Assembly: GCA_027563935.2 (NCBI GenBank)
Contig: CM050453.2
Span: forward strand, 91,052,665-91,116,664
Direction of reading: 5' to 3'
Length of the DNA stretch: 64,000 nt
Origin: Costus lasius
Lineage: Eukaryota > Streptophyta > Magnoliopsida > Zingiberales > Costaceae
Part shown: one piece after another, positions 15,237 to 54,126 of the stretch
Position numbering within the stretch: position 1 is the first letter of the stretch
Layout: every line of letters begins with the position of its first letter
Translations under genes and position numbers: made by a program
Notes under the pieces: generated by a model
The model's database searches: none
Seen by the model: the letters and a program-made list of their open reading frames with translations, nothing else
Told to the model about the DNA's origin: nothing

Positions 15237-16820
15237 TGATGTCTTGTATTTATATAGTCTTTTTGACTACTATTTCCTAGTGAATCGAGACATATTTTCA
15301 TGCTTTTGCATCTTTTTCCAGCTTATTTCATTAACTTTCTTCAGAAGCTTCACTACTTATCATATTTGTTAAATACAGGACAATTCACTCATTTTTAGAG
15401 CTATACGGATGTACGGTCACATATCCGAGTGAATCAGGATTCATGACAAGAAGTTTGGCTTCAGATAGGAGTAAGAGCTTATACGCAGCCACCAGAATTT
15501 ATTGCCAGCCGTCAAGGATTAAATGAGCATTAATTATCTGACGATTACAAGAATTAAAGAAGCTGTAGTTAATATTTTATCATTACGGTCATAAATGCGG
15601 AATTTGTTTGGATCATTTAATAGCCATCAAGAGTCATAATGGGGATTAAATTGATAATTTGAAGAGTCATGCGATTAATGGATGAGGATTTAATACAGAA
15701 TACCAAGAGACACGCCATCAAGAGCCATAATGGGAATTAAGTTGAGAATTTGAAGAGTCATGCAATTAATGGATGGGAATTTAATACAGAATACCATGAG
15801 ACATGCCATTAAGAGCCATAATGGGGATTTAATTCAAAGTTTAATTCCAGGATTTAATTCTGAATTTAATTCGGAATACAAAGAGGCACCCGATTTCTAT
15901 ATAAAGGGCTCAAGAGAAAGGAGAAGGGGGTGGTCCACGGCGAGAGGAGGATTACATTGAGAGCCCAAAGCTTGGTTACAAGGCAAGAATACAAGTATTC
16001 CAAAGAGAGGAAGGCGACATCAAGGGAGGAGAGAAGGAGTTTGTCTTAATTCTTTTCTCATATTTACTTTGTTCGGTTTCTTTTACATTTTAATTGTAAG
16101 TCTTGCACTTGTTGTAATCATGTGTGTACTAGCATAAAACCTCAATCGGGATTTGGGTGTAGCCCGTCTTTTTGATTTGTAAGAGTTAATGTTGAGAACT
16201 ACTTTTTGATATATCTTTCAAAGCCATTTGATCTTGGTTTGTTTCACTCGTGTTTATCGATTTTTGGCTAGATCGGTTTTCACACTTTAAGTTGGTTGTG
16301 GTAAAATCTGATAGGTGAATTGCAATCAACGGATCCTCCTTGATCAATCTTGTGTGCTCTATTACGAGAGTCGTAGAGACCACTTGGGGAATCTTCGTGT
16401 CCCGTTTCAACATGATCTACTTATGCTTAGTCCACTGCGAGAGTAGGAGACTAACTAAGTAGATTGTGGAGTTGTCCACCGCGAGAGTATGAGACTAACT
16501 AAGTTGCTGAGTTGTGCACCCGAGAGGGGTATGGCTCAAGAGGACCAATCCTTGGTTTTTTTTCTAATGATTTTCTAAGCAGTACTTTTCGTTACACTTA
16601 TAAGTTGATAGACGTGGTGAACCCAGATTTCCTGATTTCCCTCTCATCGATACGATATTTGTTTTATTACGCTTTTAGCTTAGTTTGCGTTACCAACCAA
16701 GGTTTTTAATCACTTAGCTATCAAAGATCAGAATATTTGGTACTTGACAATCCATTCCTGTGGGAACAATATCTTAAGTACTACATCAGTAAGCCATGCG
16801 CTTGCGGATTTTGTGCAACA
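15237..16820 (+). repeat. E2 5' LTR
   Basis: A 1584-bp LTR starting TGATGTCTTGTATTTATATA and ending TTTTGTGCAACA. It matches the split 3' LTR (43392-44604 plus 50590-50977, together 1601 bp). The region 15530-15850 has short diverged repeats around GAGTCATGCAATTAATGGATG and GAGCCATAATGGGAATTAA. Confidence 0.94.
15898..15905 (+). promoter_or_regulatory. E2 LTR TATA box
   Basis: TATATAAA in context TTTCTATATAAAGGGCTCAAG, conserved in the 3' LTR at about 44071-44078. It lies about 660 bp into the LTR, a plausible core promoter. No transcription evidence is available from sequence. Confidence 0.65.
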
Positions 16821-16826
16821 AGTTTT

Positions 16827-16844
16827 TGGCGCCGTTGCCGGGGA
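16827..16844 (+). promoter_or_regulatory. E2 primer-binding site
   Basis: TGGCGCCGTTGCCGGGGA, 6 nt after the LTR. This is the standard Athila-type PBS, usually assigned to tRNA-Asp. It is intact. Confidence 0.9.
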
Positions 16845-16939
16845 TTGGTATTTTGTCAATATTGAGATATTCTAAAAATTGATAGACTAAGTTTTCGCTT
16901 ACTTCCTTCGTTATTTACTTTTACTTTTTAGTTTTTTTT

Positions 16940-31873: not shown

Positions 31874-33571
31874 TGAAGAAACCCCTTAAAATGGGGGGCA
31901 AAAACCCTAAGCATGGCGCTAATGAAAAAGATGCTAGCGGAAGCAAGGGTTTAAGATCATTTGCATGCCATATGTTCAACTATAACCGATTGAATAGATT
32001 GAGATGGAAATTCATACCAACGCCATATGCTTGGAAGTCGGCTTGGATGAAGAGAACAAACTAGATCTCCTCCACAAGTTCACACACAAGATGAAGATGC
32101 TTACTCCTTGCGGTCCCTTGTGCTAGCAAGACACCCAAGCTTTTCTTTTGTCGAATTGGAAGGGATGATGAGATGATTCCCTTTCTTGGCCGAGAGCTTC
32201 TCTTGCTTCTCTCCCACCTTCGTCAACCACCCAACGAAAGGATGATCGCGTTCAAGTGAAGAAGCCAACGCTTATGCGTTTTGGCGTTGAAGCATAACCG
32301 GCTTTGATTACTTTCCATAAGTGGAAGAGAATCAAGCCAAGCGTTCAAGCCACTTCATGAACGCATATTGGCATTGAACCAAGCGTTCACATTTGTGAAC
32401 CGGTTCAATCCAAATCGTTCAATCGAATTTGGTTCATCAAACCAAACCGAAATAGCTCAAGCCACTTGGTCTAGACCAAATCGAACCCCAAGGCTCATGA
32501 TCTAACCATTCATCTCCTGATGCCCCTGATCTCTCCGATCTAGCATCATCTCTCTCGATCGAAGCTTACCGATCTCAAGTCCTAATCAATCAAACATGAT
32601 CAGACCAGATCTCACTTACAATCAGAGATTAAATCCCTATAATCTGAACTCAAAGAATCCAGTCCATACGATCTGACTCAAGTAAGCCATATCACCAAAT
32701 TGTGCGACCCTGAGGGTTTCCTCTAAATGTCGGTAACGATAACTTACGTTATCACGATCAGTGAGGGGTATCTAGCAACACATCACTGTCTCCCGATATA
32801 AAGGAAAGAGTCTTCCAAGACTACTCCCAAACCATAGCACAAGTGTGAATCAAACTCACAAGGCATACATAATTCCTTTGCCACTGGATGTTCTTATTGG
32901 ACAAGCATGTCAAGCCTGTAACTCCAATACGATGAGCATGATTAGATCAGATGCACATAGTCATCTGGGTATGGCCATACACTATCTCAATCATCTCATA
33001 AGGGGGCCCAGTTAGAACATCACACTCCTTAAACAAGGAGACGGCAATCCTATGTCTATCACTAGTGCCCTAACCTGATTCAAGCTCACCATCCAAGATA
33101 GTCTATAATCATTATGTTTCAAATGATATTGAACTACCTCAAGACAATGACAATCATCATTTAGAAACACAAGTGATCTCAAGTCAGAGGACATGTGCCA
33201 CTTGCTGCTTACAAGGATCATTCACATTGTGACAAGCAATGGAATATCCCAGTAGGGTCTGTCCAGTACATCCAATGTACCCATGAGTCTACATCTTATT
33301 CCATGCTCGAAGCATCCTATAAGATTAGCACTTATATTAGTCTCAATCATATCAAGGCTGTCTCATGTTCACCAAGATATCTCGACTAAGGACATATAGC
33401 CTGTCAGCCTAGCTGAACAGCTTTGAGACATTATTCAGAAGTACACTTATTACAGCAGACAAGGTAACAACCTGAATAACAACCATGCCTTTTATAAACA
33501 TAAGAGTTTATTACATGATACTTATACAATCCCAAGGCCTCAAACATTAGCCTTAAGGGCATACTCCAACA
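31874..33571 (-). repeat. E4 3' LTR
   Basis: 1698 bp; plus-strand ends TGAAGAAACCCC and CATACTCCAACA. Differs from 39367-41064 at 33405 (C against T at 40898) and 33427 (G against T at 40920); no length change. Confidence 0.95.
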
Positions 33572-33584
33572 ATCTCCCACTTGC
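33572..33584 (-). promoter_or_regulatory. E4 polypurine tract
   Basis: Minus strand GCAAGTGGGAGAT abutting the 3' LTR, identical to the E3 tract. Confidence 0.85.
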
Positions 33585-33591
33585 ACTTAAT

Positions 33592-36500
33592 CTAATGGTT
33601 GAGAAATCTCAAACCCATATTATTACAGTGCTTCTCATGCTTCTGCTGCGCCAGAGGCTTGGTAAGCGGGTCTGCCAGATTGTCATCTGTATGAACCTTG
33701 CATATTTTGATCTCGCCTCGATCAATGATCTCCCGGATCAAGTGAAACCGTCTCTGTATGTGCTTGGACTTCTGGTGCGACCGCGGTTCCTTTGCTTGTG
33801 CGATGGCTCCAGTGTTATCACAGAAGATAACCAAAGGATCAGCACTCGAAGGAACGACACCAAGTTCTCTCACGAACTTACGAATCCACACTGCCTCCTT
33901 GGATGCTTCCGAGGCTGCAACATACTCGGCTTCTGTTGTGGAATCAGCAACAGTTGACTGTTTGAAGCTCTTCCACACCACTGCTCCACCATTCAAGCTA
34001 AAAACATAGCCTGATTGCGATCGGAAATCATCCTGGTCCGACTGGAACGAAGCATCAGTATATCCCTCTATACTGAGTTCTTCCTGACCACCATATATCA
34101 AGAACATATCTTTGGTCCTCCGCAGATATTTCAAGATGTTCTTGACCGCAATCCAGTGCGCCAATCCTGGATTACTTTGGAATCGACTGGTCACGCTTAA
34201 CCCGTAAGCGACGTCTGGGCGAGTACACAACATCGCATACATAATGGACCCAATAGCCGAAGCATAAGGCGTATTGTCCATTTCATCTTTCTCAGTCTGT
34301 GTTTGTGGACACTGACTCTTTGAAAGATTCAGACCATGTCTGACTGGAAGATATCCACGTTTAGAATTCTCTAAATGGAATCTCTCCAGGACCTTATCGA
34401 TGTAAGTACTCTGGCACAGCCCGAGAAGCCTCTTAGATCTATCTCTGTAGATCTTCACACCTAGTACATAGGCTGCTTCTCCTAGATCTTTCATCTGGAA
34501 ACATTTTCCTAACCATGCTTTAACAGCATGCAGTTCAGGAATATCATTTCCAATGATTAAGATATCATCGACGTAGAGGATTAGGAATGTAATCACGCTC
34601 CCACTAAACCTCTTATATACACACGGGTCATCCTCGTTCTTGATGAAACCAAACTCAGAGATTGATTCATCAAAACGAATATTCCAGCTCCTAGATGCTT
34701 GTTTCAGCCCATAAATGGACTTCTTTAACTTGCATATTTTATGACGATCTGCTGGATTAGTGAAACCTTCCGGTTGTGTCATATACACATCCTCATCCAG
34801 ATTTCCATTAAGGAAAGCTGTCTTCACATCCATCTGCCAGATCTCATAATCGTAATATGCAGCTATCGCGAAAAGAATCCGAATAGACTTAAACATGGCT
34901 ACAGGTGAGAAAGTTTCATCATAATCTATCCCGTAGATTTGTTTGAAACCTTTCGCAACTAGCCTGCCTTTATAGGTAACCACGTTACCATCCATGTCAA
35001 TCTTCTTCTTGAAGATCCATTTACAGCCTATAGGGATTACTCCCGGAGGCGGATCAACCAAATCCCAGACTTGGTTATCTGACATGGAGTCCATCTCGGC
35101 TCGCATAGCTTCAAGCCATCTAGCTGACTCCGGTCCACTGACCGCATCCGCATAAGTTAGGGGTTCATCATTATCAATGATGTAGACTCCGTCATAGCGC
35201 TCAGGCTGTCGACGGATCCTACCCGATCTTCGCGGTTCCCGTGATATTTGAGCCTCAGGTTGTTCAGTAACCTGATCTACTGGCTCAGGCACATCCAACT
35301 CTACCTGACTACTTTGTCCTTCCTCTGGATTCTCATCCAGCTTTATTTCTCTCCCACTGGCCTCTTGCAGAAGAAACTCCTTCTCAAGAAATATGGCCGT
35401 CCGAGCAACAAAAACCTTGTTCTCTTTGGGATCGAAGAAATAATAACCCTTAGTTTCCTTAGGGTAACCGACAAAGATGCATTTATCAGATCTGCTCTCT
35501 AGTTTCCCAGAGGCGAGTTTTTTGACATAAGCCTCGCAACCCCAGATCCTGATAAATGTCAAGCTAGGCTGTTTCCCATACCATAGCTCATATGGCGTCT
35601 TTGAAACTGCCTTGGATGGCACTCGGTTTAGTACCTTTGCAGCTGTTTCCAGTGCAAAACCCCAAAAGGAATATGGAAGAGTAGCCTGACTCATCATAGA
35701 ACGAACCATATCAAGTAACGTTCTATTTCTCCTCTCGGACACACCATTCCACTGCGGTGTTCCTGGCGGAGTGAGCTGTGAGATAATCCCACACTCCTTC
35801 AGATAGTCAGTAAACGCATGACTCAGGTATTCTCCACCTCGATCAGAATGAAGTGCCTTGATATTTCGGCCTAACTGATTTTGTACTTCATTTTTGAACT
35901 CTTTGAACTTGTCAAAAGATTCACTTTTATGTCTCATTAAATAGACATACCCATATCTACTGAAATCATCAGTAAAGGTAATGAAGTACTGATAGCCACC
36001 TCTAGCATGTTTACTAAATGGCCCACACACATCACTGTGTATAAGGTCAAGTAAACCTGAAGTCTTTTGACCTTTGTTTGAAAAAGGTGACTTCGTCATT
36101 TTACCCATCAAACAAGCTTTGCATGTATCAATCTCCTCATAGGAGAAAGATCCCAGCAGTCCATGATCATGCAACCGCTTAATGCGCTTCTCGTTTATAT
36201 GGCCTAAACGACTATGCCATAGCAAGGTGCTGTCATCAGCATACTTGGCTTTCTTATTATCAATGTTTTGTATAGAATTTTCCATGTCCAACATGTATAA
36301 CCCATTGTTAATTGAACCAGTTGCATACACAATATTATCTAGAGATAAAACACACTTTGAAATATTGCATTCAAAGGCAAATCCTTTCCTGACAAGAGCA
36401 GGAATAGAGATAATATTCTTTGTGATACTTGGTACAAAATAACAATTGTTTAATTCTAATACAATGCCAGATGGTAAAGTAATGAAATAGTCTCCTACAG

Positions 36501-37476
36501 CAACAGCAGCAACCCGTGCCCCGTTTCCAACTCGTAGGTCTACCTCATGCTGTCCCACCTGCCTTCTTCTCTTGAGTTTCTGCACATTTGAACAAATGTG
36601 AACTCCACATGCAGTGTCCAACACCCATGATATAGTAGAAGAAGATAACATGACCTCAGTCACATATATACCTGAGCCAGAAGCGATGCTTCCCCTCTTA
36701 TCTCCTTGGAGCGCTTTACAGTCCTTTTTCCAGTGACCCAGCTGGCCACAGTGGAAACACCTGTTGTCCTTCGACCGCTTCACCTTCTGTTTCAGGGCCT
36801 TGCTGTAATTCTTGACAGGGGCCTTGCCCTTCTTCCCCTTCTTCTTGTTCCTGGAAGGAACCATCAAGACAGAGGTTGAAGGCTTACCCTTCAGAGTTTC
36901 CTCAGTGGTCAAGAGCATATTCAGCAGCTCTGCCGGCGTACAATCGATTTTGTTCATATTAAAGTTAATGATGAACGCATCGAAAGAAGGCGGGAGAGAC
37001 TGCAGAATAATATCCACAGCAAGCTCCTGGTTGATGGTATGCCCCAGTTTCTCCAGAGCCTCCTTGTGCCCAATCATCTTGAGCACGTGAGCTCCCACTG
37101 GGCTCCCTTCAGCCAGTTTGCTCTGAAAGAAGAGCTTCGTCAGATTATAGCGTTCAGTCCTCGCCTGTGCAGCATACAGCATCTTGAGGTTCGCTATAAT
37201 TTCTATAGCCGACATATCCTCATGCTGACGCTGCAGCGGTGGCGTCATAGACGCTAGCATCAGGCAAGCGACATCAATGCTATCATTGATGTGCTTTTCG
37301 TAGGCATCCCGAACCGCCCTTGCGGCGTTCGGAGCGGGCTGCGGCGGTATCGCCATCTCGAGGACATACAGTTTCCTCTCTGCCTTAAGAACGATCTTAA
37401 GGTGTCCGAACCAGTCAGAGAAGTTCGGCCCAGCAAACTTCTCCCTTTCCAGTAGGGATCGCACATTGAAGCTCAT
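33592..37476 (-). CDS. E4 Gag-Pol polyprotein (copia), intact
   Basis: 1294 residues encoding everything needed for replication in a virus-like particle. Gag occupies about residues 1-230 (EKFAGPNFSDWFGHLKIVLK near the start). The zinc knuckle CFHCGQLGHWKKDC is at 240-253. The protease active site WVLDTACGVHIC is at 285-296, with Ala in place of the usual Gly of D-T/S-G. Integrase: H421, H426, C452 and C455 bind zinc; the catalytic triad is D482, D545, E581 with the canonical 35-residue gap before Glu. RT spans about 785-1030 with TAFLNGNLDEDVYM and YVDD at 968-971. RNase H spans about 1134-1265 with D1141, E1182 or E1184, and D1220. The order protease-integrase-RT-RNase H is the copia order. 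The frame ends 20 bp before the LTR. The start at 37476 (MSFNVRSLLE) fits the family. Confidence 0.95.
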   Translation of the reverse strand: MSFNVRSLLEREKFAGPNFSDWFGHLKIVLKAERKLYVLEMAIPPQPAPNAARAVRDAYEKHINDSIDVACLMLASMTPPLQRQHEDMSAIEIIANLKMLYAAQARTERYNLTKLFFQSKLAEGSPVGAHVLKMIGHKEALEKLGHTINQELAVDIILQSLPPSFDAFIINFNMNKIDCTPAELLNMLLTTEETLKGKPSTSVLMVPSRNKKKGKKGKAPVKNYSKALKQKVKRSKDNRCFHCGQLGHWKKDCKALQGDKRGSIASGSGIYVTEVMLSSSTISWVLDTACGVHICSNVQKLKRRRQVGQHEVDLRVGNGARVAAVAVGDYFITLPSGIVLELNNCYFVPSITKNIISIPALVRKGFAFECNISKCVLSLDNIVYATGSINNGLYMLDMENSIQNIDNKKAKYADDSTLLWHSRLGHINEKRIKRLHDHGLLGSFSYEEIDTCKACLMGKMTKSPFSNKGQKTSGLLDLIHSDVCGPFSKHARGGYQYFITFTDDFSRYGYVYLMRHKSESFDKFKEFKNEVQNQLGRNIKALHSDRGGEYLSHAFTDYLKECGIISQLTPPGTPQWNGVSERRNRTLLDMVRSMMSQATLPYSFWGFALETAAKVLNRVPSKAVSKTPYELWYGKQPSLTFIRIWGCEAYVKKLASGKLESRSDKCIFVGYPKETKGYYFFDPKENKVFVARTAIFLEKEFLLQEASGREIKLDENPEEGQSSQVELDVPEPVDQVTEQPEAQISREPRRSGRIRRQPERYDGVYIIDNDEPLTYADAVSGPESARWLEAMRAEMDSMSDNQVWDLVDPPPGVIPIGCKWIFKKKIDMDGNVVTYKGRLVAKGFKQIYGIDYDETFSPVAMFKSIRILFAIAAYYDYEIWQMDVKTAFLNGNLDEDVYMTQPEGFTNPADRHKICKLKKSIYGLKQASRSWNIRFDESISEFGFIKNEDDPCVYKRFSGSVITFLILYVDDILIIGNDIPELHAVKAWLGKCFQMKDLGEAAYVLGVKIYRDRSKRLLGLCQSTYIDKVLERFHLENSKRGYLPVRHGLNLSKSQCPQTQTEKDEMDNTPYASAIGSIMYAMLCTRPDVAYGLSVTSRFQSNPGLAHWIAVKNILKYLRRTKDMFLIYGGQEELSIEGYTDASFQSDQDDFRSQSGYVFSLNGGAVVWKSFKQSTVADSTTEAEYVAASEASKEAVWIRKFVRELGVVPSSADPLVIFCDNTGAIAQAKEPRSHQKSKHIQRRFHLIREIIDRGEIKICKVHTDDNLADPLTKPLAQQKHEKHCNNMGLRFLNH

Positions 37477-39352
37477 GGTGTTCGTTGCTGCAGGAATCTA
37501 CAACAAGCAAGAACAGCAAGGTCAGTATCAATGTTCAGAATCAATCCAGGACTTAAGAAAGATTCTTTTCTCACTATTTTGTCTGACTGAAAAATCCAGT
37601 AAACAGTCCGAAAGAGTAACACTCTTTTAGTGAGATGGGATCCAGATTTCATACTTGGTCTCCGCGTCCCGCTCAGGCGAGATAAGATGCACAGAGATGA
37701 CAAGCACTAATTTCTGGTAGGCTGTCCCAGCCAATCGCCAACCCGTGCGATTCCCCTTCATCTTGGCAATCCAGCAGACTGTGCCAACTGAGTTGGTACA
37801 ACACAGTCTCTGATCCCAGAGATGGCTGCCTCCATGCGCTACCATATGCGCCACATATGTAGTCTACATGGTCAAGCTGACCTGACCTACTCCCTGGACC
37901 ACCACGTGCTATGCTGAGCAACGAGAGGGGATAAATCCCAACTCTGTAACACGCAGGTGAAATCCAGCACCGTCTGAAGATAGATGGACGTGCCCACTGA
38001 GTGGGTTCAACACGGCTCCAACGATAATCAGAAAGGTGAGGTTTCGCGTCAGAAGGCTTATCGAGCTTGATATGTTAGCGTTGGATTTTAACGGTCTTTT
38101 ATCTTCTTAACTATCATGGAAGTCCTATGGTGATAGCAGAAGATAAACTTAAACATGCAATTCTAATTATAAAAGCAATAAATAGAATGCATGATCTTAT
38201 GTGGTAAAAGCCCATGAACCCTAGTAAGACCTTAATTTTACTTAAGTCTTCACTTGAGCTCCATTGCATCTCATCTGGTCCAACCCAGTGCCCTAGCGCC
38301 AAGAGCACCTCAGGTGCACCACCAGGTGAATGCCCCTCTTGGATGTGTGCCTTTGTGCTCTTGTCTAATCAAAGTACATTTGATCTATCTAGACAAGGTT
38401 GACTCGCAGGTCAACAACATATTATAAATTAAGTACAATGTGATTCGCAGATCACAAATTAATTTACAATTTTTAAATCCAGGCACGCAGGCCCCAGCAC
38501 AGCACACAAATGGGCAACCCACATAAGACTAAATAAACAAGCATATGGTTCAATCAACATGTGATCCATTCATGAAATTAAAATTTTTGAAAAACCCCAT
38601 GGTATCAATTTTAATTTCCTTATAAGCCCTATAACCTTACAATGGTCCATTGATAGGGATCCACGCATCCATCTAGTCAGATCCACTGCCCTTGCATGCA
38701 CCGAGTCCTAACTGACCCGTGTTGACCTAATGGTCAACCATGCATGCGCCAAGGGCTGAACCACCCTCATGAGTTTTGGCAAGCGGGTGTGACCCCGGGC
38801 CTAACTCATGTGTGTTCAGTAGTTGTCTCAACCAGACCTCGCTACACGCCCTAGATGCAGTCAACCTACAGCCACCTTGTGCTTGCGCATAGGTGCTATC
38901 AGGTCAACTCATCTGAGCTGTCAGATGGTCTGATCAGACTTGGATCTATTTAGATTATGCTTTCAACCCCATCAACCCATCTAAGGAATTATAGTAGGGG
39001 CACCTTAGATCTAATCAGCCGCGCAAGATATAAGTTTTATAAAACATCTAGATCAAGCGCAAACAATCAAACAACATGCTTCATTCATATTGATAACCCT
39101 TAGATCTAAGGGGGTCCCCTTCAAGGGGGAGCGCAAACTTTAGGGGGTCCCCTTCAAGGGGGAGCGCAAACTTTAGGTAATCATGCCACAAGCGCAAAGT
39201 TCATGTAACCATGACACAAGCGCAAAGTTCATGTAACCATGACACAAGCGCAAAGTTCATGTAACCAAATCATCAAGTAAGCGCAAAGTTCATCAAGTAA
39301 GCGCAACATGTATGGATCACATCAGCAAACATAATAGCATGCATAGAGCCTA
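37477..39352 (-). other. E4 untranslated leader
   Basis: About 1.9 kb between PBS and the polyprotein start, with no domain on either strand. Length is like that of BARE-type leaders. It contains the tandem repeats at 39110-39305. Confidence 0.7.
39110..39305. repeat. Two adjacent tandem repeats in the E4 leader
   Basis: Two identical 33-bp units at 39110-39142 and 39143-39175 (GGGGGTCCCCTTCAAGGGGG then AGCGCAAACTTTA), each containing CCCCTTCAAGGGG, a near-perfect palindrome. Directly beside them are about three 28-bp units from 39187 (CACAAGCGCAAAGTTCATGT then AACCATGA), the last ones shortened. Both arrays share GCGCAAA. They lie just inside the PBS, where dimerisation or packaging signals could be. 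Confidence 0.9.
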
Positions 39353-39364
39353 CCTCTGATACCA
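39353..39364 (-). promoter_or_regulatory. E4 primer-binding site (initiator tRNA-Met)
   Basis: Minus strand TGGTATCAGAGG, two bases from the 5' LTR. Eleven of twelve bases match the E3 site. Confidence 0.87.
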
Positions 39365-39366
39365 AT

Positions 39367-41064
39367 TGAAGAAACCCCTTAAAATGGGGGGCAAAAACCC
39401 TAAGCATGGCGCTAATGAAAAAGATGCTAGCGGAAGCAAGGGTTTAAGATCATTTGCATGCCATATGTTCAACTATAACCGATTGAATAGATTGAGATGG
39501 AAATTCATACCAACGCCATATGCTTGGAAGTCGGCTTGGATGAAGAGAACAAACTAGATCTCCTCCACAAGTTCACACACAAGATGAAGATGCTTACTCC
39601 TTGCGGTCCCTTGTGCTAGCAAGACACCCAAGCTTTTCTTTTGTCGAATTGGAAGGGATGATGAGATGATTCCCTTTCTTGGCCGAGAGCTTCTCTTGCT
39701 TCTCTCCCACCTTCGTCAACCACCCAACGAAAGGATGATCGCGTTCAAGTGAAGAAGCCAACGCTTATGCGTTTTGGCGTTGAAGCATAACCGGCTTTGA
39801 TTACTTTCCATAAGTGGAAGAGAATCAAGCCAAGCGTTCAAGCCACTTCATGAACGCATATTGGCATTGAACCAAGCGTTCACATTTGTGAACCGGTTCA
39901 ATCCAAATCGTTCAATCGAATTTGGTTCATCAAACCAAACCGAAATAGCTCAAGCCACTTGGTCTAGACCAAATCGAACCCCAAGGCTCATGATCTAACC
40001 ATTCATCTCCTGATGCCCCTGATCTCTCCGATCTAGCATCATCTCTCTCGATCGAAGCTTACCGATCTCAAGTCCTAATCAATCAAACATGATCAGACCA
40101 GATCTCACTTACAATCAGAGATTAAATCCCTATAATCTGAACTCAAAGAATCCAGTCCATACGATCTGACTCAAGTAAGCCATATCACCAAATTGTGCGA
40201 CCCTGAGGGTTTCCTCTAAATGTCGGTAACGATAACTTACGTTATCACGATCAGTGAGGGGTATCTAGCAACACATCACTGTCTCCCGATATAAAGGAAA
40301 GAGTCTTCCAAGACTACTCCCAAACCATAGCACAAGTGTGAATCAAACTCACAAGGCATACATAATTCCTTTGCCACTGGATGTTCTTATTGGACAAGCA
40401 TGTCAAGCCTGTAACTCCAATACGATGAGCATGATTAGATCAGATGCACATAGTCATCTGGGTATGGCCATACACTATCTCAATCATCTCATAAGGGGGC
40501 CCAGTTAGAACATCACACTCCTTAAACAAGGAGACGGCAATCCTATGTCTATCACTAGTGCCCTAACCTGATTCAAGCTCACCATCCAAGATAGTCTATA
40601 ATCATTATGTTTCAAATGATATTGAACTACCTCAAGACAATGACAATCATCATTTAGAAACACAAGTGATCTCAAGTCAGAGGACATGTGCCACTTGCTG
40701 CTTACAAGGATCATTCACATTGTGACAAGCAATGGAATATCCCAGTAGGGTCTGTCCAGTACATCCAATGTACCCATGAGTCTACATCTTATTCCATGCT
40801 CGAAGCATCCTATAAGATTAGCACTTATATTAGTCTCAATCATATCAAGGCTGTCTCATGTTCACCAAGATATCTCGACTAAGGACATATAGCCTGTTAG
40901 CCTAGCTGAACAGCTTTGATACATTATTCAGAAGTACACTTATTACAGCAGACAAGGTAACAACCTGAATAACAACCATGCCTTTTATAAACATAAGAGT
41001 TTATTACATGATACTTATACAATCCCAAGGCCTCAAACATTAGCCTTAAGGGCATACTCCAACA
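39367..41064 (-). repeat. E4 5' LTR
   Basis: 1698 bp, same ends as 31874-33571. On the minus strand it starts TGTTGGAGTATGCCC, related to the E3 LTR start. A TATA-like TTTATAAAAGG reads on the minus strand at about 40991-40981, 74 bp from the LTR start. Confidence 0.95.
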
Positions 41065-43391: not shown

Positions 43392-44604
43392 TGATGTCTT
43401 GTATTTATATAGTCTTTTTGACTACTATTTCCTAGTGAATCGAGACATATTTTCATGCTTTTGCATCTCTTTCTAGCTTATTTCATTAACTTTCTTCAGA
43501 AGCGTCACTACTTGTCATATTTGTTGAATACAGGACAATTCAATCATTTTTAGAGCTATATGGATGTACGGTCACATATCCGAGTGAATCAGGATTCATG
43601 ACAAGAAGTTTGACTTTAGACGGGAGTAAGAGTTTATCCGCAGCCGCCAGAATTTATTGCTAGCCGTCAAGGATTAAATGAGCATTAATTATCTAATGAT
43701 TACAAGAATTAAAGAAGCTGCAGTTAATACTTTACCGTTACGGTCATAAATGCGAAATTTATTTGGATCATTTAATAGCCATCAAGAGTCATAATGAGGA
43801 TTAAATTGATAATTTGAAGAGTCATGCAATTAATGGATGAGGATTTAATACAAAATACCAAGAGACACGCCATCAGGAGCCATAATGGGAATTAAGTTGA
43901 GAATTTGAAGAGTCATGCAATTAATGCATGAGAATTTAATACAGAATACCATGAGACACGCCATCAAGAGCCATAATGGGAATTAAGTTGAGAATGGGGA
44001 TTTAATTCAGAGTTTAATTCTAGGATTTAATTCTGAATTTAATTTGGAATACAAAGAGGCACCCGATTTCTATATAAAGGGCTCAAGAGAAAGGAGAAGG
44101 GGGTGGTCCACGGCGAGAGGAGGATTACGTTGAGAACCCAAAGCTTGGTTACAAGGCAAGAATACAAGTATTCCAAGGAGAGGAAGGCGACATCAAGGGA
44201 GGAGAGAAGGAGTTTGTCTTAATTCTTTTCTCATCTTTACTTTGTTCGGTTTCCTTTACATATTAATTGTAAGTCTTGCACTTGTTGTAATCATGTGTGT
44301 ACTAGCATAAAACCTCAATCGGGATTTGGGCGTAACCCGTCTTTTTGATTTGTAAGTGTTAATGTTGAGAACTGCTTTTTGATATATCTTTCGAAGCCAT
44401 TTGATCTTGGTTTGTTTCACTCGTGTTTATCGATTTTTGGCTAGATCGGTTTTCACACTTTAAGTTGGTTGTGGTAAAATTTGAGAGGTGAATTGCATTC
44501 AACGGATCCTCCTTGATCAATCTTGTGTGATCTATTACGAGAGTCGTAGAGACCACTTGGGGAATCTTCATGTCCTATTTCAACACAATCTACTTATGCT
44601 TAGT
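43392..44604 (+). repeat. E2 3' LTR, left part
   Basis: Matches 15237-16431 with scattered substitutions and small indels, including the TATA box near 44071. It ends with TTAGT (44600-44604), the target duplicated by E5. Confidence 0.93.
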
Positions 44605-46318
44605 TGACGCAGCGGATGTTATGGGTGAGTTGGTCCTTAATTCAGTACTCTACGGTGGGGGAAACCATGATGCCTAATACATGAGAGGGGCTGTAGGCAA
44701 GAGAAGTAAAACGTGTGGAGCGATGAAAACTCGAGAAAACCGATGAAAACCCGTGCCGCGGAGACGATGAGCACGATTCTATGAATTAAACTACTCACCT
44801 GAATTGTAGAGCCAATTTCTTGAAGCAAGCACGTGCGCGCAGGACCTAGACGGGGCTGTGGAGGATGAACGCTGCGAGTCCAAGATACAAGCCGAACAAT
44901 GATTGCTTTGAAAAGGACACGGAGCCTTGGGAGGTTCTCCGGGTGTTTTGATTGAAAACTAAAAAGCGATTACAAGAGAGGGGGCGAAGAAACCCTAGGC
45001 GAGCTCTTCGGAGTTTGAAGTGGTCTAAAGCTTCGCGTGGGGGAAGGTGCTACTACAACAAAGCTAAGAAACTAGTAGTCTCTCGGCCCTCTTTTATAGA
45101 ACAAGAGGGAGGGGTGAGGTACAAGCTACTCACATGGGGTTTGTTGGAGACACCAACAACCCCTAACAACTAAAGAGGGTCTAAGATGCCCTCTAACAAC
45201 CTAAAAAGCAATAACTAACTTGGGAATAAAAGTACAGCAAACAACACGGGGTGGCTGGCGCATGGGCCTTCTTGCTGGGCCGTTGTCGACGGCTACACCA
45301 TCTCGGAGCAGGCTACTATGAAGTAGAAAAACTTGCTGATCGTGGGCTGATTCTGGACGTTGGTGGTGGTCTCTTGGGCTCAGTTGAGGAACCGATTGTT
45401 GTAGCAATCCGCGGTGGCTTCCAGTTGGGGTCCTCACGGAAGAGTAGCCATAGGGACGGGTTGGAGCGACTCCGAAGATGTAGGTGAAGCCTCGTTGATG
45501 GAGCGGACGTGGCCAGTTGTTGCTGAAGAAGGGCTCACCACACCCACAAAACGGTCCGGGGGGTGCGAAGACCATTGCGAGCATCGAACGGGATGAAAAA
45601 TGATCTTCGTGTGTTTTCTGGGGATAAACACGTCCTGGCCGTGCTTGCCGTCACGGCCGTGATCAGCGTCTGGATTTCCCGTCGGGGCAAACACGGCTGG
45701 AGGCATGGGTGTGTCGGTGATCTGCGAGCTCGTCACAGCCGTGTCCCTTGTCACAGCCTGGCCGTGTCCCTCGTCACGGCCTGGCCGTGTTGGGGTCGAA
45801 CAGGTTTTATGGCAGTGTCGTAACGAGTGTCACGGGCCGTAATGTGGGGTCCAAAATCCATAGAAAGTTTGGACACGGCCGTGTTCCAGGTCATGGCCTA
45901 GCCATGCTGAAGTGGGCTAGTGACGCCGGATGGGGGACTGGTCATAGCCTGGCCGTGTTCCTCATCACGGCTGTGATCGCTGAGGTCGAAGTCCACTGAA
46001 CTCGTCACGGCAGGTGTCACGGGAGTGTCGCGGACCGTGTTGGCGTGCGTGTTCTTCCTTGACGGTGTCACGGCCGTGTTCTCCATTATAGCCTGGCCGT
46101 GTTGAGGTGGGCTATGTCACGCGGAGTCGGTCACGGCTGCTGGAATGGTCGTTCTTCTTGTCACAGCCATGTCTGCAAACACGGCCTGGCCGTGTTCAAG
46201 GTGACAGAGTGCTTCTTGATCTGAAATTTGTGGGGCATCCTCCTCAGGTCCTGGGGAGTCTCCCCAAGTGTCTCCCAAAGGTGCTGGGCCGCCCTCATGT
46301 GTGTCCATGACTCCGTCA
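44605..46318 (-). repeat. E5 3' LTR
   Basis: About 1714 bp. The U5 end at 44605 is fixed by the TSD. The U3 end (46318, plus-strand CTCCGTCA) is inferred from homology with the solo LTR S2, whose ends are fixed: both U3 starts share the motif ACTTGGG then GACTCCCCAGGAC. The stretch 45610-46200 is dense in CACGGCCGTG and CACGGCCTGGCCGTG dyads. No strong PPT abuts 46319, which is the weak point of this boundary. Confidence 0.75.
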
Positions 46319-46386
46319 CGTATCCCAGGGTGGGAAGAATTCTCCTCCGGAGAATAAGAATTCTCCTTCGAGGTGGAGGCCCGCAA
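45434..46386 (-). pseudogene. E5 LTR-encoded reading frame, broken copy
   Basis: Minus-strand frame that enters the LTR from the protease side without a stop. Inside the LTR it reads MDTHEGGP, then TWGDSPGPEEDAPQ and LEHGQAVFADMAV (46309-46160), and stops at 46117. Further pieces in other frames are EEHGQAMTSPP (about 45935) and DGKHGQDVF then PPDRFVGVVSPSSATTGHV (45660-45500). The order matches the intact S2 frame (53380-54126). At least two frameshifts break it. The product would be a His/Asp/Gln-rich repeat protein of unknown role. Confidence 0.6.
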
Positions 46387-46391
46387 CTCCT

Positions 46392-47060
46392 TGGGCGGAG
46401 CCGGGGTCAGGCAGATCTTATGCCCTCTGTGCTAGAAGATGTAGGTGTTAGACTGGCCATAGTGGATGACGTCGCGGTCATAGAGCCAAGGTCGGCCAAT
46501 GGGCGACGTCCATGGATGTAACGTCGCACCACACCTTCTCGGCGTAGTCACCGAAGTAAATGGGGACCTGGCAGTGATGGGTGATGGGCAGGCTGGACGC
46601 GTCGACCCACGCAATCGAGTAGGGTCAAGGGTGCGGCTCCAAAGGGAGACCGAAATGGGTGACCGCCATCCGGGAGACCGTCGTTGAGGCTGCTACCCCC
46701 ATCAATCACGATTTTGCACGAGTGTCCATTACACTTAATATAAGTGTAAAAGATGCTCGTGTGCTTCCAATCCTCGGACGGAGGGGGAGAGTGCACAAGG
46801 GTGCAGCGGACTATGGCCAAGGTAGGGCGCGGGCTCGACTCCTCATCGGAGTAACACTGGGGTCCAACCTCTTGGGCCGAGGGTGGCCCGGGAGCAGTGA
46901 CGGCGTGGGGGTTGCACGGAGCGGCCGCGATGTGCAAGGAACGGCTGTGAACTGTAGGCCAGTCCCGGTTGAAGTGACTAGTCTGACTACAGTGACGACA
47001 AGGTCCGGGGGGGCACCGCAGCGAGGGGTGCCTTACCCTTTTCGTCCCAGGTGAGACGGG
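46392..47060 (-). pseudogene. E5 zinc knuckle and protease remnant
   Basis: In the frame after the end of gag lies CRHCSQTSHFNRDW, a CCHC knuckle with Trp in place of the last Cys (about 47008-46967). Then come YIKCNGHSCKIVIDGGSSLN (about 46745-46690), the aspartic protease active-site region, and, in another frame, SPIGRPWLYDRDVIHYG (about 46500-46450) from the protease C-terminal part, then a stop at 46434-46432. RT does not follow; the sequence runs on into the LTR. Confidence 0.75.
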
Positions 47061-48141
47061 GCACATGTGCCTCGCGTGGAGCATCATGCAGAGGTCGTCG
47101 GGGACGTGCGTGCTGGGGACGCGGAGGAGCCTCGTGGCAGGGGGTCGGGGCATGCGCATGAACCAGAAGACGCTGGGGAACAGGTTTACCGCGATGGGGC
47201 TGCGAACGCAAATCCTGCTTGACCTCGCAAGCATGGTCTAGGATGAGGATGATCGAGTCTAACCCATAGGACGGAAAGGCGCGTCGGATATCCTCTCGGA
47301 GTCCGCGCTTAAACCTAGAGAGCATGAATGCCGAGTCCTCCCTAAGATTGCAATGGATTCCGAGTTTGTCGAAGCGAGAGTGGTACGCATCGACGGAGTC
47401 GGACCCCTGCGAGATAGCGGAATAGGAGTCAAGGAGGCGCTGATGGTAAGTGGGTGGCACATATTTCTCCATAAGGTGATAGCACATCTCTTCCCACCGA
47501 GTGATGGGGGGAAGACGCTGGTCAACTAGTTGGCGCTCAACGTTTGTCCAGTACAACCGGGCGGGGCTGGTGAGCAGTAGGCGAACAGAACTGACCTTAA
47601 GGTGAATGGACATAGCGCTCCACTCGAAATAGTTTTCCACGGCTGAAACCCAGTCGAGGAAATCGTTGGGATCTAGGCTACCCTTAAAGATAGGGGGGTC
47701 GATGCGCGTGAGACGACGGACCTCATCATCCTCGCGACTTCGCTGGATCGGACGCTGCGGGGGAGGGGCCTCCTCCACCCACGTGGACTCATCACCGAAC
47801 AGGTTGTACCACGGGGATTCGTTGTTGCGCATGTGCAGCGGGGCCAACAAAGGGGCACTAAGCGAGGGCTGCCCCATGGCGGGCTTAGACTTGAGTTCCA
47901 CAACTTGGTCCGTGAGGTGTTGGACCGACGGCATTAAATGCTGAAACATAACCTCCATCGCTTCCAAGCGTGTGGATAGCGATTCAACCAACTCTACCCT
48001 AGGCGGAGTACTTTCCTCAGTCATAGTGGGCACTTGGGTAGGGGGGTTTTGGTAAGAGGTTCCTGATCTAGTAGTCATGGTGACAGAAAATGTATGAGTA
48101 TGCAATGTGGAAGAGAAAACCGAAGAAACCGTATGATACAA
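46987..48141 (-). CDS. E5 Gag (Retrotrans_gag-type), open frame
   Basis: 384 residues. A Retrotrans_gag-like capsid domain spans about residues 145-315 (PPIFKGSLDPNDFLDWVSAV, EKYVPPTYHQRLLDSYSAIS, SRFKRGLREDIRRAF). Met22 (MTTRSGTSYQ) is the more likely start, because residues 1-21 look like untranslated sequence. The frame ends just before the zinc knuckle, which is found one frame over. The change coincides with a run of seven G on the plus strand (47007-47013), suggesting a one-base slip that removed the nucleocapsid part. The Pro/His/Arg-rich tail is typical. Confidence 0.82.
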   Translation of the reverse strand: MYHTVSSVFSSTLHTHTFSVTMTTRSGTSYQNPPTQVPTMTEESTPPRVELVESLSTRLEAMEVMFQHLMPSVQHLTDQVVELKSKPAMGQPSLSAPLLAPLHMRNNESPWYNLFGDESTWVEEAPPPQRPIQRSREDDEVRRLTRIDPPIFKGSLDPNDFLDWVSAVENYFEWSAMSIHLKVSSVRLLLTSPARLYWTNVERQLVDQRLPPITRWEEMCYHLMEKYVPPTYHQRLLDSYSAISQGSDSVDAYHSRFDKLGIHCNLREDSAFMLSRFKRGLREDIRRAFPSYGLDSIILILDHACEVKQDLRSQPHRGKPVPQRLLVHAHAPTPCHEAPPRPQHARPRRPLHDAPREAHVPRLTWDEKGKAPLAAVPPRTLSSL

Positions 48142-48157
48142 GAGTTAGCTCCAACTT

Positions 48158-48169
48158 GCTTTGATACCA
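48158..48169 (-). promoter_or_regulatory. E5 primer-binding site
   Basis: Minus strand TGGTATCAAAGC, four bases from the LTR terminus at 48174; one mismatch to the usual initiator tRNA-Met site. It proves that the LTR end at 48174 is the inner U5 end. Confidence 0.82.
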
Positions 48170-48173
48170 AAAT

Positions 48174-50584
48174 TGACGCAGCGGATGTTATGGGTGAGTT
48201 GGTCCTTAATTCAGTACTCTACGGTGGGGGAAACCATGATGCCGAATACGTGAGAGGGGCTATAGGCGAGGGAAGTAAAACGTGCGGAGCGATGAAAACT
48301 TGAGAAAACCGATGAAAACCCATGTTGCGGAGACGTGACTTGAGCAATACCAGCGAACCGAAGGAGACAACGAGCATGATTCTATGAATGAAACTACTCA
48401 TCTGAATTGTAGAGCCAATTTCTTGAAGCAAGCACGTGCGCGCAGGACCTAGATGGGGCTGCGGAGGCGGAACGGTGCAAGTCAAAGATACAAGCCAAAC
48501 AATGATTGCTTTGAAGTGGACCCGGAGCCTTGGGAGGTTCTCCAGGTGTTTTGATTGAAAACTAAAAAGCGATTATAAGAGAGGGGGCGAAGAAACCCTA
48601 GGCGAGCTCTTCGGAGTTTGAAGTGGTCTAAACCTTCACGTGGGGAAGGTGCTACTACAACAAAGCTAAGAAACTAGTAGTCCCTCAGCCTTCTTTTATA
48701 GAACAAGAGGGAGGGGTGAGGCACAAGCTACTCACATGGGGTTTGTTGGAGACACCAACAACCCCTAACAACTAAAGAGGGTCTAAGATGCCCTCTAACA
48801 ACCTGAAAAGCAATAACTAACTAGGGAATAAAAGTACAGCAAACAACACGCGGGGTGGCTGGCGCATGGGCCTTCTTGCTGGGCCGTCGATTGGGCCGTT
48901 GTCGACGGCTACACCATCTCGGAGCAGGCTACCACGAAGCAGCAGAACTTGTTGATCGTGGGCTGATTCTGGACGTTGGTGGCGGTCTCTTGGGCTGAGT
49001 TGAGGACCCGTTTGTTGTAGTGATCCGTGGTGGATTCCAGTGGGGGTCCTCACGGAAGAGTAGCCATAGGGACGGGTTGGAGCGACTCTGCGCGACACAG
49101 CCCACCTCAACATGGCCAAGCCGTAACGGAGAACACGACCGTGACACGGTCAAGGAAGAACGCGCATGCCAACACGGTCCGCGACACACCCATGACACCT
49201 GCTGTGATGAGTTCGGCGGACTTCGGCCTCAGCGATCACGGCCGTGACGAGGAACACAGCCAGGCCGTGACCAGTCCCCCATCCGGCATCGCCAGCCTAC
49301 CAGGAACACGGCCGTGTCCAAACTTTCTGTGGATTTTGGACCCCACATTACGTCCTGTGACACTCATTACGGCACTGCCATAAAACCTGCTCGACCCCAA
49401 CACGGCCAGGCCATGACGAGGGACACGGCCGTGATGAGCTTGCAGATCACCGACACACCCATGCCTCCAGCCGTGTTCGCCCTGAGGAGAAATCCAGACA
49501 CTGATCACGGCCATGACGGCAAGCACGGCCAGGCCGTGTTTAGCCCAGAAAACACACAGAGATCATTTTTCATCCCGTTCGACGCTCGCAACAGTCTTCG
49601 CACCCCCCCTGGACCGTTTTGTGGGTGTGGTGAGCCCTTCTTCAGCAACAACTGGCCACGTCCGCTCCATCAACGAGGCTTCACCTGCATCTATGGAGTC
49701 GCTCCAACCTGTCCCTATGGCTACTCTTCCGCGAGGACCCCCACTGGAAGCCACCGCGGATTGCTACAACAACCGGGTCCTCAACTCAGCCCAAGAGACC
49801 GCCACCAACGTCCAGAATCAGCCCACGATCAGCAAGTTCTACAGCTTCGTGGTAGCCTACTCCGAGATGGTGTAGCCACTGACAACGGCCGAATCGACGG
49901 CCCAGCAAGAGGGCACATGCGCCAGCCACCCCGCGTGTTGTTTGCTGTACTTTTATTCCCTAGTTAGTTATTGCTTTTCAGGTTGTTAGAGGGCATCTTA
50001 GACCCTCTTTAGTTGTTAGGGGTTGTTGGTGTCTCCAACAAACCACATGTGAGTAGCTTGTGCCTCACCCCTCCCTCTTGTTCTATAAAAGAAGGCTGAG
50101 GGACTACTAGTTTCTTAGCTTTGTTGTAGTAGCACCTTCCCCACATGAAGGTTTACACCACTTCAAACTCCGAAGAGCTCGCCTAGGGTTTCTTCGCCCC
50201 CTCTCTTATAATCGCTTTTTAGTTTTCAATCAAAACACCTGGAGAACCTCCCAAGGCTCCGGGTCCACTTCAAAGCAATCATTGTTTGGCTTGTATCTTC
50301 GACTCGCACCGTTCCGCCTCCGCAGCCCCATCTAGGTCCTGCTCGCACATGCTTGCTTCAAGAATTTCATTCGTAGAATCATGCTCGTTGTCTCCTTCGG
50401 TTCGCTGGTATTGCTCAAGTCACGTCTCCGCAACACGGGTTTTCATCGGTTTTCTCAAGTTTTCATCGCTCCGCACGTTTTACTTCCCTCGCCTATAGCC
50501 CCTCTCACGTATTCGGCATCATGGTTTCCCCCACCGTAGAGTACTGAATTAAGGACCAACTCACCCATAACATCCGCTGCGTCA
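48174..50584 (-). repeat. E5 5' LTR replaced by a giant inverted repeat
   Basis: Left arm 48174-49088 (915 bp) is the normal U5-side part of the LTR. Right arm 49696-50584 (889 bp) is its reverse complement. The 607-bp spacer 49089-49695 is the reverse complement of the 3' LTR stretch of about 45473-46123. So the LTR reads normally to CGACTC (49083-49088), then turns round and runs back to the U5 terminus. The turn-point matches GAGTCG at 46124-46129 of the LTR. About 190 bp of U3 (46130-46318 equivalent) is missing. Both arms share two insertions absent from the 3' LTR. Confidence 0.88.
49027..49875 (+). pseudogene. LTR-encoded frame in the inverted arm of E5
   Basis: Same frame as in the 3' LTR, here on the plus strand because the arm is inverted. 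Pieces: PQHGQAVTENTTVTR and DHGRDEEHSQAVTSPP (to 49285), then one frame over PQHGQAMTRDTAVMS and DGKHGQAVFSPENTQ (49400-49560), then one frame over DRFVGVVSPSSATTGHV and SAQETATNVQNQPTISKFYS ending AYSEMV and a stop at 49875. The C-terminal end matches that of S2 closely. Confidence 0.6.
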
Positions 50585-50589
50585 TTAGT

Positions 50590-50977
50590 CTACCGTGAGA
50601 GTAGGAAACTAACTAAGTAGATTATGGAGTTGTCCACCGTGAGAGTAGGAGACTAACTAAGTTGCTGAGTTGTGCGCCCGAGAGCAGTACGGCTCAAGAG
50701 GACCTATCCTTGGTTTTTTTTCTAAAGATTTTCTAAGCAGCACTTTTCGTTACGCTTATTAGTTGATAGATGTGGTGAACCCAGATTTCCCGATTTCCCT
50801 CTCATCGATATGACATTTGTTTTATTACGCTTTTAGCTTAGTTTGCATTACCAACCGAGGTTTTTAATCACTTAGCTATCGAAGATCAGAATATTTGTAC
50901 TTGGCAATCCATCCCTATGGGAACAATATCTTAAGTACTACATCGGTAAGCCGTGCCCTTGCGGATTTTGTGCAACA
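50590..50977 (+). repeat. E2 3' LTR, right part
   Basis: Resumes after the E5 target duplication and matches 16432-16820, ending TTTTGTGCAACA, followed by TSD TTAAG. Confidence 0.92.
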
Positions 50978-53379: not shown

Positions 53380-54126
53380 CTAGACGCGTTCCGAACACAC
53401 GGCGATGAGGCAGCAAAACTTCGATGTTGTGGGCTGGGCAACGACCGTCGCGGCCCGCTCTTGGGCCGTGTTGTTGACGAGGTTGAGTGGCCCACTTGGA
53501 GTAAAATCTTCAGGGGACTTTCCCTTGGGTGGCGCCGCGTCGGTGCGGATGGGGAGAGAGCTAGTGGCGCCCAAGAAGCGGTCCGGAGGCTTACTTTGGC
53601 GTTGGGATTGCCGGATTTCCACTTTGTTGAGCTCCCTTGACTCCTCATGGGGTGGAGCAACATGGTAGGGAGGGCGGTGCACATCAAAATGGGGTCGTCG
53701 AGGCTGAAATGGATCTCCAGGGGCGAACACGGCCTGACCGTGATGGTGGGCACGGCCGTGTTCAGAGTCACCGAAATCCACAGAAGCGGACACGGCTTGC
53801 CCGTGCTTGGAGTCACGCTCGTGCTTGGCATCGTCGAAATCCACAGAAGCGGACACGGCTTGCCCGTGCTTGGAGTCACACCCGTGCTCAGCGTCGTCGA
53901 AATCCACAGAAGCGGACACGGCTTGCCGTTGCTTGGAGTCACACCCGTGCTTGGCATTCGCGTCCCTAGGCGACCGTGTCACGGCCGTGTCTAAGCGCAC
54001 GGCCTGGCCGTGCTTGGGTCCAGTGAACTCTGATCGCGCTGGAATTCTGGCCGTCTCTTCCCCATGTCCTGGGGAGTCTTCCCAAGTGCCTTTCAGGGGA
54101 TTTGGGACGTCCCCAAGTGTACCCAT
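53380..54126 (-). CDS. LTR-encoded repeat protein frame in S2 (unknown function)
   Basis: 248 residues, starting 23 nt inside the U3 end and open to 53380. The N-terminus MGTLGDVPNPLKGTWEDSPG resembles the E5 counterpart (TWGDSPG in both contexts). The centre holds three in-frame 21-residue repeats containing KHGQAVSASVDFDDAEHGCD. The C-terminal half has PPDRFLGATSS and ends with NNTAQERAATVVAQPTTSKF and SERV. The E5 copy keeps PPDRFVG and SAQETATNVQNQPTISKF at the same places. Whether it is translated is unknown. In an intact element it would be the C-terminal tail of Gag-Pro read into the 3' LTR. No known domain recognised. Confidence 0.5.
   Translation of the reverse strand: MGTLGDVPNPLKGTWEDSPGHGEETARIPARSEFTGPKHGQAVRLDTAVTRSPRDANAKHGCDSKQRQAVSASVDFDDAEHGCDSKHGQAVSASVDFDDAKHERDSKHGQAVSASVDFGDSEHGRAHHHGQAVFAPGDPFQPRRPHFDVHRPPYHVAPPHEESRELNKVEIRQSQRQSKPPDRFLGATSSLPIRTDAAPPKGKSPEDFTPSGPLNLVNNTAQERAATVVAQPTTSKFCCLIAVCSERV
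53772..53960 (-). repeat. 63-bp in-frame tandem repeat in S2, three copies
   Basis: Period 63 bp (21 codons), units starting at 53772, 53835 and 53898 with CGAAATCCACAGAAGCGGA, then ACACGGCTTGCCCGTGCTTG and GAGTCAC. Copies differ by a few bases without changing the minus-strand frame. Confidence 0.88.

Follow-up and report, generated by a model that had tools for sequence, protein, structure and literature searches.

A Ty3/gypsy-type element which carries a U5 terminus at both outer ends, in place of one U3 and one U5 end, was identified at positions 44605-50584 of the window (the whole 64,000-nucleotide stretch analysed, from a host plant genome of 1.28 Gb). It is a single insertion with three LTR parts of common origin, a microhomology junction and a 5' U3 terminus that has been lost. 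Integration of LTR elements is taken to proceed via a U3 end and a U5 end, and their annotation is built on direct LTRs. It is considered probable (roughly 0.66) that a foldback switch within a single cycle of reverse transcription gave a linear cDNA with U5 at each end, which was integrated once with a 5-bp duplication.

The terminus TGACGCAGCGG begins at 44605 and its reverse complement runs up to 50584, giving the TG...CA termini and short target-site duplication (TSD) of Ty3/gypsy elements, here an exact 5-bp TTAGT at both outer ends, and a paralogous empty site inside the window holds TTAGT once (Table 1). The locus was found three times on contig C8, in the window and in two further assembled copies (L009 and L010), as segmental duplicates which include the flanks. 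Both L009 and L010 keep TTAGT on both sides and the same ends, apart from a single base change in each right terminus, and L010 itself lacks approximately 93 bp at the border of spacer and arm 2. They were rejected as independent insertions as their flanks are in common with the window (98.4% over 10 kb for L009, both flanks for L010), and the three loci therefore count as one event. An earlier note on this DNA had claimed the same LTR terminus at both outer ends and integration as one unit; every coordinate it gave agrees with the sequence, and the exact TSD, the empty site and the same TTAGT-flanked ends in two duplicates all speak for single integration of the whole element. A second TSD pair around the inverted copy, which the note had named as a refutation, was not seen: the inner end of that copy has no U3 terminus, and a scan of the window for inverted pairs having TG...CA ends and a TSD returned the outer pair only.

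Table 1. Features of the element and of its target site (positions in the window).
Feature	Position	Strand	Basis
Paralogous empty site, one TTAGT	15237..16820	+	left flank 15237-16431, right flank 16427-16820
Left TSD, TTAGT	44600..44604		single copy at empty site 16427-16431
3' LTR, complete	44605..46318	-	U5 terminus 44605, U3 start 46318; termini match relatives
Departure-site equivalent in 3' LTR, CGACTCCG	45467..45474		sequence
Proposed landing site of switch, within U3, CGGAGTCG on plus strand	46122..46129		sequence
Stretch with pol-loss junction (46359/46365)	46319..46420	-	internal region's 3' end joined to gag side
Open frame downstream of gag, no Pfam match	46548..47234	-	Pfam scan
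gag open frame with Retrotrans_gag	46987..48141	-	PF03732, E 1.6e-12
Presumed primer-binding site, sense strand TGGTATCAAAGC	48158..48169	-	motif; four bases from U5 end
Arm 1, truncated 5' LTR, U5 terminus to turn point	48174..49088	-	sequence
Turn point, microhomology CGACTC(T)G	49083..49090		sequence
Spacer, inverted U3 sequence missing from arm 1	49089..49695	+	sequence
Arm 2, inverted LTR part with second U5 terminus at its end	49696..50584	+	sequence
Right TSD, TTAGT	50585..50589		sequence

The arms of about 0.9 kb and the 607-bp spacer reported previously were confirmed, arm 1 being 915 bp and arm 2 889 bp (94.3% identity over 915 aligned columns). The turn from CGACTC (49083-49088) to the site matching GAGTCG (46124-46129) is likewise present in the sequence, and the junction at 49088 connects two interior U3 positions, with no LTR terminus there. 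In the 3' LTR the departure equivalent reads CGACTCCG and the landing site CGGAGTCG, a match of 8 bp, and arm 2 of both the window and L009 has CGACTCCA at the corresponding spot, a match of 7 bp; the seventh base at the junction is T in all three duplicates, which leaves 6 bp. The microhomology is thus 6 bp now and perhaps was 7-8 bp, if the parental state survives in the 3' LTR or in arm 2. When 300,000 random junctions were drawn in each of three LTRs, the chance of a run of at least 8 bp at a self-foldback junction within one LTR was 0.0002-0.0004, and that of at least 6 bp approximately 0.002. Microhomology of 6-8 bp is compatible with template switching and with end joining.

The 3' LTR, arm 1 and arm 2 formed one clade against 13 other LTRs (support 96/93 for the arms), and the common clade was also recovered from the U3 part, where arm 1 is absent (support 98/96). 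Judged by distance alone, the 3' LTR and the 5' block might have come from separate parents, since divergence among family members is about as large as that between the 3' LTR and arm 1; one parent is favoured by the trees and by shared states, in the form of 5 columns where all nine rows leave the commonest family base. In L010, the duplicate without arm conversion and the one on which three-way equality rests, the three LTR parts differ at 45/876, 52/903 and 51/865 sites with overlapping bootstrap intervals, the arm 1-arm 2 difference being slightly, not significantly, below the other two; about equal distances are as expected if a single cycle of reverse transcription gave rise to all three. 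In the window and in L009 the two arms are separated by distances of 0.030 and 0.029, against 0.060 and 0.059 from the 3' LTR, and the one-cycle model therefore needs gene conversion between them. The closeness of the arms is located in one converted tract (12 sites, columns 130-539), with 6 arm-2-specific sites at columns 592-803, and such conversion shows the later behaviour of a palindrome of this kind.

The internal region holds a retrotransposon-type gag as expected of Ty3/gypsy elements, preceded by a presumed primer-binding site of a kind like those for initiator-Met tRNA. A pol with reverse transcriptase, RNase H and integrase in Ty3 order is missing at the 46359/46365 junction, which carries a 7-nt filler (AATTCTC), a repeat of nearby sequence. 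One relative (L028) has RVT_1, RNase H, H2C2 and rve in this order within one frame and in another (L026) RVT_1 and rve are split over separate pieces, with rve under its curated cut-off in both relatives; judged by these domains, the element is a pol-less copy of a family with Ty3-order pol in relatives. No transposase, as carried by DNA transposons with terminal inverted repeats, was found in the two minus-strand frames scanned, where gag was the sole Pfam family; besides these two, the element has a 217-aa frame on the plus strand (49314-49967).

A TATA motif, assigned by motif, lies 494-534 bp from the U5 end in 20 of 22 rows, so arm 1 extends beyond the promoter motif by approximately 0.4 kb into U3, and the switch should therefore follow the second strand transfer. 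In the proposed mechanism the second (plus-strand) transfer would come first, after which the minus strand would copy U5, R and approximately 0.4 kb of U3 (915 nt) and would then leave its plus-strand strong-stop template. Its 3' end would pair via CGACTC (perhaps CGACTCCG) with a minus-strand LTR, either that at its own 5' end or that of a co-packaged sister; as the spacer is absent from arm 1, the template would be another, longer LTR copy. Copying would run to the 5' end of the template strand, which is the U5 terminus, and integrase would thus be given two processable U5 ends. Counting against a late switch, a strict displacement model would leave the landing site still paired with strong-stop DNA at the time. 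The foldback via a minus-strand LTR copy suggested in the earlier note fits the sequence and is refined here: the template would be a separate LTR of greater length than the nascent one, and the switch would follow the second strand transfer. Joining of cDNA pieces before integration is the competing account. A fuller version is put forward tentatively, at rather less than even odds: that a plant Ty3-type integrase took two U5 ends in planta, from a cDNA which had become palindromic when its minus strand switched late from one DNA template to another, with pol lost by a second switch in the same cycle.

The main rival, which we regard as unlikely, is head-to-head joining of two extrachromosomal pieces ahead of integration: microhomology-mediated end joining would link a cDNA with a broken 5' LTR to a free LTR fragment from that same element (e.g. 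a strong-stop duplex), and the linear product would carry U5 at both ends. This would produce the ends, the TSD and the short microhomology seen here, and the filler at the pol-loss junction is a mark which end joining can also leave, but two molecules from one parent would each have to break, whereas the switch needs one event. That the inverted arm formed in the chromosome once the element had integrated, through foldback repair or break-induced copying, is very improbable. In the window and L009 the arms do resemble each other more than they resemble the 3' LTR, but that closeness is confined to the converted tract and the LTR parts of L010 are about equally distant; moreover, outward copying of the 3' LTR would enter the reverse complement of the left flank, whereas beyond TTAGT the sequence continues into the right flank in the same way as at the empty site. 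A later chromosomal foldback was rejected.

The other explanations are more improbable still. Given the abundance of the family (200 genome matches to its U5 terminus with at most 3 mismatches), two insertions in opposite orientation might have been fused later by recombination; this is contradicted by the exact TSD across both outer ends, the single TTAGT at the empty site, an inner junction without an LTR terminus, and the tree, in which the parts are one clade. Autointegration can invert cDNA, and a cDNA might have inserted into itself before integrating, but this would join a viral terminus to an internal site, and no such join is seen in the microhomology junction between two interior U3 positions. 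Long inverted repeats are prone to misassembly; the turn point is, however, present in the assembly at three loci, with flank divergence of 0.6-2.3%, so an assembly chimera is equally hard to credit, and the junction at 49088 claimed in the earlier note holds at assembly level.

Among known systems, in HIV-1 the 3' end of minus-strand strong-stop DNA folds back and self-primes on DNA. This takes place before the first transfer and on the nascent strand itself, whereas the foldback switch proposed here would follow the second transfer and use a different LTR copy. Olsen and Swanstrom (1985) reportedly found defective retroviral DNA with inverted segments, put down to the growing strand switching template, as is proposed here. 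Abnormal template switching in reverse transcription has been described to yield rearranged cDNA, integrated once with a 5-bp TSD (Sabot & Schulman 2007; PMC1950507). As in that complex, the outer LTRs are alike and a single TSD surrounds the whole rearranged unit, on which the same argument is based; there, however, three LTRs were present, the internal one common to two complete cores, while here the extra LTR part is an inverted end part, the outer U3 is gone, both ends are U5 and there is one core. The inverted case is not described in PMC1950507. According to excerpts of PMC3790719, MMTV and Rev-A integrase joined DNAs mimicking U5 ends pairwise to target in vitro, with a 5-bp duplication in sequenced concerted Rev-A products; that work used short DNA ends and purified enzyme, whereas here a whole element lies in a chromosome. 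No plant LTR element with two U5 ends was found in the titles and abstract openings returned by searches of openly licensed papers, which do not prove absence; the present case is undescribed in excerpts of PMC4468133, PMC5651808, PMC7215508 and PMC5668417, and inversion terms matched no passage of PMC3187697.

The insertion indicates that a U5/U5 molecule can integrate in a living plant with normal target duplication, and it preserves a record of the site where synthesis switched. A search rule follows (inverted U5 ends, a TSD and microhomology), which could measure the rate of integrated palindromes from late template switching; if the fuller version is true, reverse transcription yields, as a by-product, palindromic cDNAs with multiple switches, and these reach the chromosome and may be counted through U5/U5 elements in genomes.

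The sampled relatives have one U5 and one U3 outer end and ordinary LTRs, with exact 5-bp TSDs in 5 of the 7 relative loci for which both outer ends were at hand. Full or nearly full foldback junctions were found at 3 of the 40 scored matches (from 138 candidates), all three being the duplicates, and the other 37 cover one side of the junction only. A palindromic LTR as the family norm, also named in the earlier note as a refutation, was thus rejected, and among the same 40 matches the inverted-repeat structure did not occur at independent loci, as it would for a DNA transposon. Outward-facing U5 pairs within 16 kb, among the 100 matches listed of the 200, were found at the window's own locus only, a weak negative as the right ends of L009 and L010, which carry base changes, were not recovered among them. 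The same 100 matches included 13 direct U5-terminus pairs, 3 of them at the locus and its duplicates. Across 263,901 bases (the window and L009-L028) there were 24 inverted pairs of at least 100 bp, and the three with TG...CA ends and a TSD all belong to the same event.

The earlier note had described an LTR retrotransposon carrying a U5 terminus at both outer ends; its description of the sequence at 44605-50584 was borne out, the layout, the turn, the TTAGT repeats and both U5 ends all being as stated. The 5' block opens with a normal 5' LTR start of 915 bp (arm 1). After the turn at 49083-49088 it is the reverse complement of the LTR, made up of a 607-bp inverted U3 spacer, absent from arm 1, and a second arm (arm 2) running to the second U5 terminus at 50584. 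Exact TTAGT adjoins both outer ends of the unit. In 48174-50584 each arm contributes a copy of the family's promoter (TATA) motif, the two standing head to head and one directed outward into the right flank, and the family's U3 is rich in short palindromic units like CACGGCCGTG (window 45627-46195 and 49232-49539; repeat families D3, D6 and D7).

Features of the element and their positions in the window
Feature	Position	Strand	Remarks
Whole unit	44605-50584	minus	
3' LTR	44605-46318	minus	
Internal region with gag	46319-48173	minus	gag = PF03732
5' block	48174-50584		begins as normal 5' LTR (arm 1), ends as inverted LTR
Pol-loss junction stretch	46319-46420		7-nt filler that repeats nearby sequence

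A paralogous empty site was identified within the window, where the left flank is matched by 15237-16431 and the right one by 16427-16820, with one TTAGT in common; a second unfilled site is spanned by a 277-bp duplicate at 17412-17688. K2P distances between filled and empty flanks (left 0.047 over 1190 bp, right 0.080 over 388 bp) were near that between the 3' LTR and arm 1 (approximately 0.06), and the insertion therefore probably postdates the flank duplication, perhaps closely. Assuming 1.3e-8 substitutions per site annually, 0.06 corresponds to approximately 2.3 million years. The stretches 2943-4633, 13383-17688, 43392-44604 and 50585-50977 are diverged mutual duplicates, and the insertion site recurs unfilled at two places, 16427 and 17453.

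The genome (1.279 Gb, 269 contigs; the window is C8:91052665-91116664) was searched, and the same structure was found at C8:90692599-90698649 (in region L009) and C8:90244587-90250553 (in region L010). Separate insertion of these two copies was rejected, as their flanks are shared with the window (K2P 0.006 for L009; 0.017 and 0.023 for L010), making them segmental duplicates. The foldback junction was assembled separately in all three, which speaks against an assembly error as its source. TTAGT is unaltered on both sides in L009 and L010, each of which has one base change in its right terminus, and L010 lacks approximately 93 bp at the border of spacer and arm 2.

Relatives of the element have LTRs of approximately 1.7 kb, with a U5 terminus like TGACGCAGCGGAT and a U3 terminus like CATGACTCCGTCA, both read on the antisense strand. 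Exact 5-bp repeats flank one U5 and one U3 end in five of the seven loci in which both outer ends were compared (L011, L014, L019, L023 and L025), while the outer repeats of L013 and L027 are not exact matches. The RT, RNase H and integrase domains of relative L028, in that order, the RT and integrase pieces of L026 (rve falls short of the curated threshold in L028 and L026 alike) and the gag domain PF03732 point to a Ty3/gypsy family. A 120-bp query across the turn point gave 138 candidates, of which 40 were scored; it was matched in full or nearly so at three, all at the duplicates, and on one side only at the other 37. Among 100 listed of 200 genome matches to the U5 terminus, no other outward-facing U5 pair of the family was found beyond the element's own locus. 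Some LTRs on contig C2 contain an internal tandem 256-bp unit (L021:4490-5003; region L012).

Trees were built from the three duplicates and 13 other LTRs (22 rows for the arms, 19 for the U3 part). The 3' LTR and 5' block of the duplicates formed one clade apart from the other LTRs, with support of 96/93 (arms) and 98/96 (U3 part). In L010 the pairwise differences were 45/876 (arm 1-arm 2), 52/903 (3' LTR-arm 1) and 51/865 (3' LTR-arm 2), and their bootstrap intervals overlap; this three-way split, seen in one duplicate, is as expected if a single parent served as template for all parts within one cycle. In the window and L009 the two arms are nearer to each other (0.030 and 0.029) than to the 3' LTR. 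Twelve derived states occur in both arms of these two copies and are missing from L010 arm 2, all at alignment columns 130-539, and six arm-2-specific states common to the three duplicates lie at columns 592-803; a single cut divides the two sets (chance 5e-5 for one given order). This pattern, lacking in L010, looks like a gene conversion tract. Since eight of the 12 shared states are also in L010 arm 1, arm 2 was most likely overwritten by arm 1 over at least 0.4 kb, most likely after the L010 split and before that of window and L009.

At the turn, CGACTCCG (8 bp) is common to the departure and landing sites in the 3' LTR as it now stands in the window and in L010, and CGACTCCA (7 bp) occupies the departure site of arm 2 in the window and in L009. 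The junction is CGACTCTG in all three duplicates, sharing 6 bp with the 3' LTR. Either CGACTCCG or CGACTCTG was present at the landing site in 7/10 other alignable LTRs (three more were not alignable) and at the departure site in 7/13. Random self-foldback junctions in three LTRs had matches of at least 8 bp in 0.0002-0.0004, at least 7 bp in 0.0006-0.0009 and at least 6 bp in approximately 0.002 of cases.

Twenty of the 22 rows (exceptions: L010 arm 2 and L011) have a TATA motif 494-534 bp from the U5 end, including L026, the most divergent row of the arm region, so that arm 1, at 915 bp, extends into U3 by approximately 0.4 kb. During normal reverse transcription the 5' end does not acquire U3 until the second strand transfer has taken place, and the switch would thus have been a late step on a DNA template. 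Its landing site is also within U3, 189 bp from the U3 start. The nascent arm itself cannot have been the template because it lacks the spacer; a different LTR must have been used, the simplest candidate being the one at the 5' end of the same minus strand or of a sister strand. Synthesis to the template's 5' end, by definition a U5 terminus, would make the second end an exact U5 end, and a few identical extra bases would stand by the primer site at each end, to be trimmed by integrase. Retroviral precedent with inverted DNA reportedly exists. The reverse direction, in which a nascent minus strand in U3 jumps to a finished minus strand, would give the same product and may have occurred instead, and end joining of two cDNA pieces may also account for it. 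On integration through two U5 ends, PMC3790719 describes concerted in vitro joining of two U5-end DNAs by purified MMTV and Rev-A integrases, with a 5-bp duplication in sequenced concerted Rev-A products; the present locus suggests that such integration is tolerated in a plant too. The nearest published plant case found comprises direct template-switch complexes with TSDs (PMC1950507).

The element also lacks pol, 46359 being joined to about 46365 with AATTCTC between, which repeats neighbouring sequence. At this point the relatives compared run on into sequence leading to pol in L026 and L028, on the LTR side (5/5) and on the gag side (5/5), these two loci belonging to both sets. The 102-bp pol-loss junction (748 candidates, 40 scored places) was matched in full or nearly so at three places, all the duplicates, and on the gag side alone at the other 37. 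That a single insertion has two switch-like lesions suggests that they arose in one error-prone cycle; pol could instead have been lost between insertion and duplication.

Elsewhere in the window, repeats offset by 63 and 126 bp at 53723-53957 lie within an open frame of 308 aa that matches no Pfam family. A nearly intact copia-type element at 31874-41064 (LTRs 99.8% identical, TSD CTCTC), with a 1294-aa open frame bearing gag, integrase and RT domains, sits within the LTR of an older element (23028 to about 41469; outer TSD CTTTA).
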